Assembly (NCBI GenBank): GCA_030726725.1
Contig: JANRDC010000004.1
Location: 186,001-250,000, forward strand
DNA: 64,000 nt
Direction: 5' to 3'
Source of the DNA: Flavobacteriaceae bacterium
GTDB lineage: Bacteria > Bacteroidota > Bacteroidia > Flavobacteriales > Flavobacteriaceae
Below, one piece after another: positions 35,072 through 37,964 of the stretch; position 1 is the first letter of the stretch, and the number at the start of each line of letters is the position of its first letter. A program made the translations under genes and the position numbers. The notes below the pieces were generated by a model that saw only the letters and a program-made list of their open reading frames with translations, did no database searches and had not been told where the DNA came from.

Positions 35072-36130
35072 CTATTTCTTAGCGGAAAAACCAGGATACA
35101 TCGATGGGTTTTGATAATTTCGTTTGACAAAATCAAGGGCAAAAGTTAGTACCTCACCCATGCTTTTAGCCTGTTTAAAGGCCATATCCATAGCTAGTTC
35201 ATAAATTTCTTTGGAGAGTTGAGCCACGTTTTCATCCGAAGATACGCGGTCTTTTCTGTACACAGACAGCAATTGTTCCAGTCTAGCCTCCCGACTGAGA
35301 ATCCGTTTGGCGGTAATCGAACGCTCCTCTATCTTGTACTGTTCCACAGAAGAAGCGGGCAGACGGTCTTTGACTAAGTTGACCATCCTATTGTTTTCTT
35401 TGAAGAATTGCGGTCTATAGATGATCAGCCTACCCTCATAGGACTGCTGGTCGAAATCAATGGCGCGTATCTTGTATTCGACGTGATCAAAATCGTGAAT
35501 GGGGATGACCACATAGTTGTACGAGCGCATATCGCCCAATAAACGAATCATACAGCGCTCATTAAACTTGACGAACTCCTTAGCGATTTGGGATTTTTCA
35601 TGTGGTTTTAAATGATCTAACATATTTTCGATAAAGACATCGCCCGGAATGCCCGAAATGTGTTCTTCAATCATGGTGTCTTCATATACCAAGAAATGAA
35701 GGTTGTACGGGGAAAGCATATGCTCTAACTCCAGCCCATAAACCCGAGAAGCATCTGCTTTTTTGACGTAGAAATAGGTGAAGTTGTCATTGATCACATT
35801 GCGCACTTTGATGCGAAAAGGTTTTGAATTTCCAAAAGTGCAGTAGTCAATAGCGTCGATACTTAAGTGGGGAATGATGGACTCTGTTCCATCTGAGTGG
35901 AGTATCGCATATATTTTTTTTAGGCCGTAATCGATTTCATCACGCTCGTGATCGGCAAAATAAACGCGTATCCACAGCGTATCTTCTTGGTTTTGGTCAT
36001 AAACCACCACTGAACCAACAAACCTCAATAAATCCTGATAAAGTATCGGAAGTTTCGTGTATCTGCTGTAATTTGTCAGGTAAGTTGCCAGCCGTTTCCC
36101 AATGGGATAAGCAGGTTTTTTTTTCGACAT
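35072..36130 (-). CDS. Conserved protein of unknown function with kinase-like motifs
   Basis: 352 residues from the ATG at 36130 (357 if the ATG at 36145 is used). I know it only as a conserved hypothetical of Flavobacteriia and give it no name. Read in order, it has the pattern of a kinase or aminoglycoside phosphotransferase fold (numbering from 36145). There is FTYFYVKKAD (Lys128/129), a helix with GLELEHML (Glu139/141), a hinge-like MIEEHISGIPGD, then LLGDMRSYNYVVIP (Asp205 with Asn210 five residues later) and RAIDFDQQ (Asp230/232). The catalytic Asp-Asn spacing equals that of GDLHPGN loops. Kinase activity is inference. It is divergent from an ABC transporter pair. Confidence 0.7.
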   Translation of the reverse strand: MSKKKPAYPIGKRLATYLTNYSRYTKLPILYQDLLRFVGSVVVYDQNQEDTLWIRVYFADHERDEIDYGLKKIYAILHSDGTESIIPHLSIDAIDYCTFGNSKPFRIKVRNVINDNFTYFYVKKADASRVYGLELEHMLSPYNLHFLVYEDTMIEEHISGIPGDVFIENMLDHLKPHEKSQIAKEFVKFNERCMIRLLGDMRSYNYVVIPIHDFDHVEYKIRAIDFDQQSYEGRLIIYRPQFFKENNRMVNLVKDRLPASSVEQYKIEERSITAKRILSREARLEQLLSVYRKDRVSSDENVAQLSKEIYELAMDMAFKQAKSMGEVLTFALDFVKRNYQNPSMYPGFSAKK

Positions 36131-36193
36131 GATCGGTTGGGCCATCGATTAATTTATTTGTAACAAAATACGCATTTGTTCGTCAATAGCACA

Positions 36194-37117
36194 ATGACAC
36201 AGACTGACCCCCCTATTTTACTCAGCGTTCACCAACTGTGCAAACGCTACGGAAAACGACAAGCGGTACACCCGCTTACTTTTGACATCAAAAAAGGATA
36301 CGTATACGGATTGCTGGGCCCCAACGGAAGTGGAAAATCCACAACACTAGGCATGGTACTTCAGGTGGTCAACCCTACCTCGGGCAATTTCTCTTGGTTT
36401 CAAGGCCAATGCACCCCCAATGAAGCCCTCAAAAAAATTGGCGCCATTATTGAAAGACCTAATTTCTATCCTTATTTAAGCGCTTATAAAAATTTAGAGA
36501 TTGTGTGTTTAATCAAAGGCGTCCCTTTAAGCGCCATTGATCACAAACTTGAATTAGTCGGATTGTTGGGAAGAAAACACGACAGCTTTGAACAGTATTC
36601 ATTGGGCATGAAACAAAGACTGGCAATTGCCTCTGCCCTGCTCAACGATCCAGAAGTATTGATTTTGGATGAGCCCACCAATGGACTAGATCCTGAGGGA
36701 ATACATCAGATCAGGGGCATTATAAAAAAAGTTGCTGCTCTGGGCACGACCATAGTACTGGCCTCCCACTTGCTAGATGAAGTGGAAAAGGTATGTGATC
36801 GCGTGCTCGTATTACAAGAAGGCCATATGATTTTCGAGGGGGCTGTGGCGGATTTACTGCATGAACAACCCGTCGTCTATCTGGAAAGCCCACAGGATAA
36901 AGCCTTGGCCTCTTGGATAGAAAACCATCCCGGGATCACCCATGTTACCCCTCAGGGACTTGGCTATTTGGTGCAACTAGCACAAGAGGTTGCCACTGAT
37001 CAAATCAATAAAGAACTCTCAGAAAACGGAATATTTTTGAGCGTTCTTCAGAAACAAAAAACCAGCCTGGAAGATCGCTTCTTGGCCATGACCCATAAAA
37101 CGAATACCCATGATTAG
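36194..37117 (+). CDS. ABC transporter ATP-binding protein
   Basis: 307 residues with one cassette: GLLGPNGSGKSTTLGMVLQV, the Q-loop region ERPNFYPYLSAYKNLEI, signature YSLGMKQRLAIASALL and Walker B ILDEPTNGLDPEG. The C-terminal about 90 residues resemble the regulatory tail of CcmA/Nod-type exporters. The ATG at 36194 is preferred to a TTG at 36176. It overlaps its permease gene by 8 bases. The substrate is not evident. Confidence 0.9.
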   Translation: MTQTDPPILLSVHQLCKRYGKRQAVHPLTFDIKKGYVYGLLGPNGSGKSTTLGMVLQVVNPTSGNFSWFQGQCTPNEALKKIGAIIERPNFYPYLSAYKNLEIVCLIKGVPLSAIDHKLELVGLLGRKHDSFEQYSLGMKQRLAIASALLNDPEVLILDEPTNGLDPEGIHQIRGIIKKVAALGTTIVLASHLLDEVEKVCDRVLVLQEGHMIFEGAVADLLHEQPVVYLESPQDKALASWIENHPGITHVTPQGLGYLVQLAQEVATDQINKELSENGIFLSVLQKQKTSLEDRFLAMTHKTNTHD

Positions 37118-37964
37118 ATTGTTGCACATCGAATGGATCAAATTGTGGCATAATCGCTGGAGCAAGCTCCTGCTTTTTGGTTACTTGTTCTTGCTGACCA
37201 GCATCGCGTTAATCGCTGCTATAAGATTTGACATAGGGCCCGTAAAATTTCACCTAGCAGATCAGGGGATCTTTAATTTTCCCTATATCTGGCACTTTAA
37301 CACGTTTATCGCCGCTTGGATGAAGTTGTTTTTGGCCATCATCATTGTATCCATGACGGCCAATGAGTACAGCTATAAAACCATCAAACAAAACCTAATC
37401 GATGGACTGTCACACGCGGATTTTTTAAAAACCAAAGTCCTGATGGTGTTGGCGTTAGCCCTGGCCTCTACCCTTTTAATCGCCTTGATGTCAGGTATTT
37501 TGGGCGGAGTATTTTCAGACTACACCACGCCTTCGCTTGTTTTTCAGGATATTTCCTTCTTAGCGGCTTACTACTTAAAATTGGTTGCCTTTTTTAGTTT
37601 CTGTCTGTTTGCTGGGGTATTGGTGAAGCGTTCAGCATTTGCCTTGGGATTTATTGTGATCTGGCAAATATTTGAGGGAATACTCACCGGACTGTTGTAT
37701 TGGAAAGCCTTTAAAAACGATTCCGCCATTGTTTCGGCCGAAACCGCTGAACAAATCACCAGTTTTTTCCCCTTGGTGAGTATGTATTCCTTGATCAAAC
37801 AACCGTTTACCCGACTTAATGGAATACAAACAGTGGCCAAACAGGTGGGAGAAACTTTTGAAAATGCCTACCAAACCACGGCCATGGAATATCTGATCGC
37901 TGTATTTTGGACTGCACTTTTCATCTGGGGCACGCACCAACTGCTTAAAAGAAGGGATTTATAG
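37110..37964 (+). CDS. ABC-2 type transporter permease
   Basis: 284 residues with six predicted helices: one at about 15-37 and the rest from 65 on (LFLAIIIVSMTANEYSYK after the second). This is the usual layout of the ABC-2 permeases paired with single ATPases. It overlaps the ATPase gene by 8 bases, and the two probably form a homodimer-based exporter of an unknown substrate. Confidence 0.87.
   Translation: MIRLLHIEWIKLWHNRWSKLLLFGYLFLLTSIALIAAIRFDIGPVKFHLADQGIFNFPYIWHFNTFIAAWMKLFLAIIIVSMTANEYSYKTIKQNLIDGLSHADFLKTKVLMVLALALASTLLIALMSGILGGVFSDYTTPSLVFQDISFLAAYYLKLVAFFSFCLFAGVLVKRSAFALGFIVIWQIFEGILTGLLYWKAFKNDSAIVSAETAEQITSFFPLVSMYSLIKQPFTRLNGIQTVAKQVGETFENAYQTTAMEYLIAVFWTALFIWGTHQLLKRRDL

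Follow-up and report, generated by a model that had tools for sequence, protein, structure and literature searches.

A predicted kinase-fold protein family of Bacteroidota with a shape closest to PI3K/PI4K/PIKK domains

Introduction

The PI3K/PIKK fold is familiar chiefly from lipid kinases of eukaryotes and from the mTOR/ATM group. HipA proteins (PF07804), in turn, are bacterial kinases of the PKL superfamily that are common in Bacteroidota. In a 2007 survey of microbial kinases, PI3K was regarded as confined to eukaryotes (PMC1821047). The survey also stated that sequence searches cannot detect the kinase families that have diverged most, PI3K included, which were identified through their structures, and that many families have lost single key residues (PMC1821047).

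Here, we describe a gene located in a 64,000-nucleotide stretch of a Flavobacteriaceae genome (hereafter, the window). We read its product as a compact, probably active kinase of the PKL superfamily, representing a family that is undescribed in the libraries searched and whose shape is closest to that of PI3K/PI4K/PIKK domains (probability of about 0.75). Such a family fits the pattern of the survey, being recognised by structure and having lost single key residues (PMC1821047).

The gene and its product

The coordinates of the gene and of the features of its product are collected in Table 1. Homologues share the N-terminus MSKKKPxYP, which reads MSKKKPAYP in the window protein, so the start assigned here is right. 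All of the kinase-like motifs listed in the initial annotation are present, although its residue numbers were five too high, as if counted from an in-frame ATG at 36145. In the corrected numbering, VKK contains Lys123/124, ELEHML contains Glu134 and Glu136, the hinge-like stretch runs from Glu155 to Asp164, GDMRSYN spans residues 199–205 (Asp200 and Asn205) and IDFD spans residues 224–227 (Asp225 and Asp227).

Table 1. Window positions of the gene and of the predicted features of the encoded protein
Feature	Position	Strand	Basis and remarks
CDS, 352-aa protein of predicted kinase fold	35072..36130	-	ATG at 36130; conserved N-terminus
N-terminal part, residues 1–88 (two short helices, beta-hairpin, helix 60–78)	35867..36130	-	AF2 secondary structure
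Putative phosphate-binding beta1–beta2 loop TFGNSKP, residues 98–104	35819..35839	-	AF2, conservation (Asn101 and Pro104 invariant)
beta3 Lys123, with Asp126 and Arg129 (K-x-x-D-x-x-R)	35744..35764	-	AF2, conservation (3/3 residues invariant); Lys123 predicted as the ATP-phosphate Lys
Helix alphaC, residues 127–139	35714..35752	-	AF2, conservation (Glu136 invariant); putative Lys–Glu pairing
Hinge EEHISGIPGD, residues 155–164, after strand beta5	35639..35668	-	AF2, conservation (Glu155, His157 and Gly160 invariant)
Predicted catalytic loop GDMRSYN, residues 199–205, at the end of helix alphaE	35516..35536	-	AF2, conservation (Asp200 and Asn205 invariant)
Predicted metal-binding motif DFDQQ, residues 225–229, in place of DFG	35444..35458	-	AF2, conservation (5/5 residues invariant)
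C-lobe helices that follow the metal motif, residues 235–339	35114..35428	-	AF2; possible acceptor-substrate side

Predicted fold

AlphaFold2 (AF2) predicts a bilobal full-length structure (pLDDT 86.7, pTM 0.85) from an alignment of 80 sequences, all of them close relatives, 64–71% identical to the window protein and mostly from Flavobacteriaceae. An additional helix-hairpin-helix unit precedes strand beta1 (residues 89–97), which is followed by beta2 (105–111), beta3 (116–124, with Lys123), alphaC (127–139, with Glu136), beta4 (146–149) and beta5 (152–157). After the hinge come alphaD (163–169), alphaE (176–200), the catalytic loop, beta7 (205–213), beta8 (216–224), the DFD motif and the C-lobe helices, so that the secondary-structure elements stand in kinase order. 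The core was also predicted separately (residues 86–341, 256 residues), with a pLDDT of 82.8.

All the matches listed by Foldseek against the PDB were kinases (best E 8.7e-5, probability 1.00). Kinases were likewise the only matches listed for the core model, and they made up most of those listed for a viral library. The best Foldseek matches were eukaryotic-type Ser/Thr kinases and JAK/TYK2 pseudokinases (probability of about 1.0), from which this family nevertheless differs in its poor superposition, in giving no PF00069 match and in having no HRD, DFG or APE motif. Since the Foldseek superpositions were poor (TM of about 0.25–0.35, rmsd 14–20 Å), the fold assignment leans on the Z scores of 9–11 obtained with VIA-align, a whole-chain alignment that ranks only candidates already found by Foldseek. 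For the full model, the best 50 VIA-align rows were all PI3K/PI4K/PIKK domains, with VPS34 at Z 11.3 over 268 residues and 4.5 Å. The same was true of the core, for which PI4K-III-beta reached Z 10.6 over 220 of the 256 residues at 3.8 Å, along with VPS34 (Z 10.5), SMG1 (10.5) and Mec1 (10.4). APH, RIO and HipA structures were absent from these best 50 rows, drawn only from the Foldseek candidates. According to the tool's own note, the best Z is typically 7–8 for models without clear relatives; values of 10–11 over most of the domain are meaningful but not overwhelming. The matches to PI3K/PIKK domains extend into residues 1–88 (VIA-align range 11–344).

The bilobal kinase fold, on which the initial annotation had made its proposal depend, is predicted by AF2, with Foldseek and VIA-align in agreement, and judging from these models it is very likely. 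A protein of unrelated fold that carries the motifs by chance would be consistent with the sequence comparisons, none of which with a known kinase family is significant. However, a kinase fold is what both AF2 models, the three library searches and the strict conservation point to, which makes such a coincidence highly improbable.

Conservation of the active-site residues

In an alignment of 137 homologues, the most divergent of them about 38% identical, 42 of the 352 positions are strictly invariant. Lys123, Glu136, Asp200, Asn205, Asp225 and Asp227 are each retained in 137/137 sequences, and further invariant positions are Asp126, Arg129, Glu155, His157, Gly160, Gly199-Asp200-Met201 and Asp225-Phe-Asp-Gln-Gln229. 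The initial annotation had singled out two adjacent lysines and two glutamates (its Lys128/129 and Glu139/141), of which Lys123 and Glu136 proved invariant, whereas Lys124 and Glu134 vary. The Asp/Asn/Asp set that it had numbered Asp205, Asn210 and Asp230 is kept throughout, as Asp200, Asn205 and Asp225. By residue type, 3/27 Lys, 2/25 Glu, 5/24 Asp and 3/16 Asn are invariant, and a rough hand estimate from these counts gives a chance of about 2 in 10,000 that five positions named beforehand should all be so. Considering that the five positions were named without an alignment and that few Lys, Glu, Asp or Asn residues are invariant, coincidence is unlikely.

The key residues of the PKL superfamily, as given in the survey, have clear counterparts: the beta3 Lys (K72) and the alphaC Glu (E91) are matched by Lys123, also in beta3, and by Glu136, in the helix that follows it, and D166, N171 and D184 by Asp200, Asn205 and Asp225 (PMC1821047). 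Two others are missing in the 137 homologues. There is no glycine-rich loop (G52), the beta1–beta2 loop TFGNSKP having a single, mostly conserved Gly, and no His precedes the catalytic Asp (H164), Leu198, two residues ahead of Asp200, being invariant. These absences do not exclude the family from the superfamily, because single key residues are missing in several PKL families (PMC1821047).

Catalytic activity is likely, as far as can be judged from the residues, because no essential one has been lost in any homologue. The initial annotation had also allowed for a pseudokinase. Such a protein, or an ATP-binding regulator that performs no phosphotransfer, might be expected to carry DFD rather than DFG and to lack both the glycine-rich loop and a His ahead of the catalytic Asp, and JAK/TYK2 pseudokinases do rank high in the Foldseek list, which follows shape similarity only. 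Yet pseudokinases usually lose at least one residue of the Lys, Glu, Asp, Asn, Asp set, and here each is kept in all 137 homologues, leaving this alternative distinctly unlikely. The predicted bilobal fold and the invariant Asp/Asn/Asp set instead support the proposal of an unrecognised kinase family.

Relation to known kinase families

The window protein has no match above chance level to any Pfam, NCBIfam, PHROG or PADLOC model, nor do 27 of its homologues have one to any Pfam or NCBIfam model. PF00454 was found neither in 27 members (hmmscan, E 10) nor in the genome of the window, where PF07804, PF01636 and PF01163 were also without a match at the position of this gene (E 0.001). A PDB sequence search with the family profile gave no matches, while the single protein retrieved JAK1 at E 0.5. 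Literature searches did not retrieve a description of the family.

Profile–profile comparisons were made with hhalign against Bacteroidota sets of APH, HipA and ePK sequences, one RIO protein, and a PI3K profile of only four sequences (human VPS34, PI4KB, p110-gamma and mTOR, their letters checked against PDB chains). A search of viral contigs for PI3K relatives that might deepen this profile found none. The probability was below 3% for each target and none was significant; the kinase families did not stand clearly above twelve unrelated negatives, some of which scored as high. For PI3K, the E value was 0.02 and the probability 2%. When each target was compared with 25 column-shuffled versions of itself, the profile Z was 4.3 for PI3K, 3.9 for APH, 2.0 for RIO, 1.8 for HipA and 1.3 for ePK, and in the PI3K alignment the catalytic loop GD...N and IDF/DFD were in register. 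The signature K-x-x-[DE]-x-x-R-x3-[hydrophobic], beginning at the beta3 Lys, occurs in 132/137 family members, 2/4 PIK sequences, 0/71 other kinases and 6/1752 other ORFs, in a comparison made post hoc.

With PI3K, PI4K and PIKK domains (VPS34, PI4K-III-beta, SMG1, Mec1/ATR and mTOR), the family shares the predicted fold and its N-terminal extension (Z 10–11, 220–270 residues), the Lys-x-x-[Asp/Glu]-x-x-Arg motif at beta3/alphaC, a GDx[H/R]xxN loop and the IDF metal motif. It differs in being a stand-alone protein of 352 residues, encoded by a bacterial core gene, with GDM for GDR and DFD for DFG. The Lys-x-x-[Asp/Glu]-x-x-Arg motif recalls, post hoc, KxGDDLRQD of these kinases: the family has invariant Lys123, Asp126 (+3) and Arg129 (+6) but lacks the Asp at +4 and the QD that comes next. 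The GDRHxxN and DFG (or DLG) motifs of PF00454 are replaced by GDM[R/H]xxN and DFD throughout the family. PF00454 is not the place for this family, which lacks the profile match as well as the Arg of GDRH and the Gly of DFG.

A position near the PI3K group is plausible, with support from shape and, weakly, from sequence. It is a tentative step further, and one to which we give somewhat less than even odds, that the proteins are true, highly reduced bacterial members of the PIK lineage, homologous to PI3K/PIKK beyond a mere likeness of shape. The best VIA-align rows of two separate models, the highest profile Z over shuffled targets and the post hoc signature shared with two of the four PIK sequences all point in that direction. 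The lack of a PF00454 match, even at E 10, the altered hallmarks, with DDLRQD only partly kept, and the hhalign result with so small a PIK profile point away from it.

Alternatively, the family might be nearer to the RIO, APH and HipA kinases of bacteria, the PI3K likeness being a convergent decoration of the common fold. A Bacteroidota RIO protein (PF01163) carries GDFSTYN (GDxSxYN) and IDFPQ, which are close to GDMRSYN and IDFDQQ; the family, however, has no RIO-type nucleotide loop. With APH, second in the shuffle test, and choline kinases (PF01636), it shares the spacing of five residues between Asp and Asn and a second Asp about 20 residues later, but it has Leu198 at the position of the His of the APH HGD motif, and DFD rather than DxD. 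From HipA it differs in that no HipB-like partner gene was seen adjoining. Since none of the three models matches the protein and none of the three groups appears in the best 50 VIA-align rows, a ranking of Foldseek matches only, we consider this alternative unlikely. Of the relatives that the initial annotation had put forward, PI3K/PIKK domains are by far the nearest in shape, while APH and RIO find no support beyond the shared catalytic loop.

Proposed mechanism and significance

The reading frame, its conservation, its broad distribution and the predicted fold are shown here; ATP binding, catalysis and the role of each residue are what we infer for a compact PKL kinase of this kind. ATP would lie in the cleft between the lobes, with its adenine against the hinge (155–164). 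Mg2+ would be bound by Asn205 and Asp225, possibly together with Asp227, and Asp200 would orient or deprotonate the acceptor. The gamma phosphate would then pass to a cytosolic acceptor, which may be a protein hydroxyl, a lipid head group or a small molecule.

A Bacteroidota core gene that is nameless in the libraries searched is thereby turned into a testable enzyme. If it is active, the kinase superfamily gains a family and Bacteroidota possibly a new phosphorylation pathway, and if the PI3K likeness reflects real homology, the family bears on the origin of the PI3K, mTOR and ATM kinases. More speculatively, and with the balance of likelihood against it, these proteins could be minimal kinases of the PI3K/PIKK type, each a stand-alone core of that fold with a DFD active site and a substrate in core physiology. 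They would then make up a bacterial family, widespread and inherited vertically, that is sister to the PI3K/PIKK lineage or its bacterial root.

Distribution and genomic context

In a scan that took a single genome for each species, at least 570 loci encoding relatives were confirmed, from which the 80 close relatives, 64–71% identical and mostly from Flavobacteriaceae, were kept. Among 395 sampled Bacteroidota genomes, 100 had a match, with identities down to about 38%; two of the 100 fall short of full membership, the one in G249 being a fragment and the one in G027 unrelated. The gene is present in 37/41 sampled Flavobacteriaceae genomes and in several other orders and classes of Bacteroidota, and many lineages are without it. 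The family is thus wider than Flavobacteriia, to which the initial annotation had limited it. All but one of the 100 matching genomes have one copy, and the gene is chromosomal; no homologues were found on plasmids, phages or viral contigs. A single copy is kept in the genome of the window, which is only 1.73 Mb.

Within Flavobacteriaceae, it is a solitary gene: the gene of the NA37 nucleoid-associated protein converges with it, and an ABC transporter ATPase gene diverges from it, at a median gap of about 43 bp. In the window, this ATPase gene adjoins a membrane protein gene (37110–37964) that has no Pfam match below 1e-4 and presumably encodes the permease of the transporter; the pair is conserved across Flavobacteriaceae. 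Outside this family, it has other neighbours, namely bshA, rseC and the genes of a periplasmic binding protein, an NAD(P)H-hydrate dehydratase and a flavodoxin; none of them is conserved, and no operon partner indicates a substrate.

In several lineages outside the class of the window, the gene lies directly downstream of bshA on the same strand (loci L120, L121 and L123, and positions in genomes G003, G008, G050, G058, G155, G179, G183, G219 and G239). BshA carries out the first step of bacillithiol synthesis. Co-occurrence with bshA is uninformative, because nearly all genomes of the phylum have this gene.

A divergent second copy, about 40% identical to the window protein and with all catalytic residues kept, was detected in genome G091 (L128, 3022–4146), where it is flanked by clpP and clpX, all on one strand, at distances of 4 and 90 bp. 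The fragment in G249 (L135, C1:3158288-3158410) comprises 41 residues with an in-frame stop and is probably a decaying copy. The weak match in G027, which falls within a coiled-coil protein whose C-terminus resembles a CxxC zinc ribbon, was set aside as unrelated. Weak PF00454 matches elsewhere in Bacteroidota have no bearing on the family. Three of them (L141, L142 and L144; E 0.001–0.007) are short proteins of 262–265 aa with DRTxRNTNML-like and LIDHGA motifs, which resemble small HipA-type kinases, and the one at L144 is encoded directly after an ABC ATPase.
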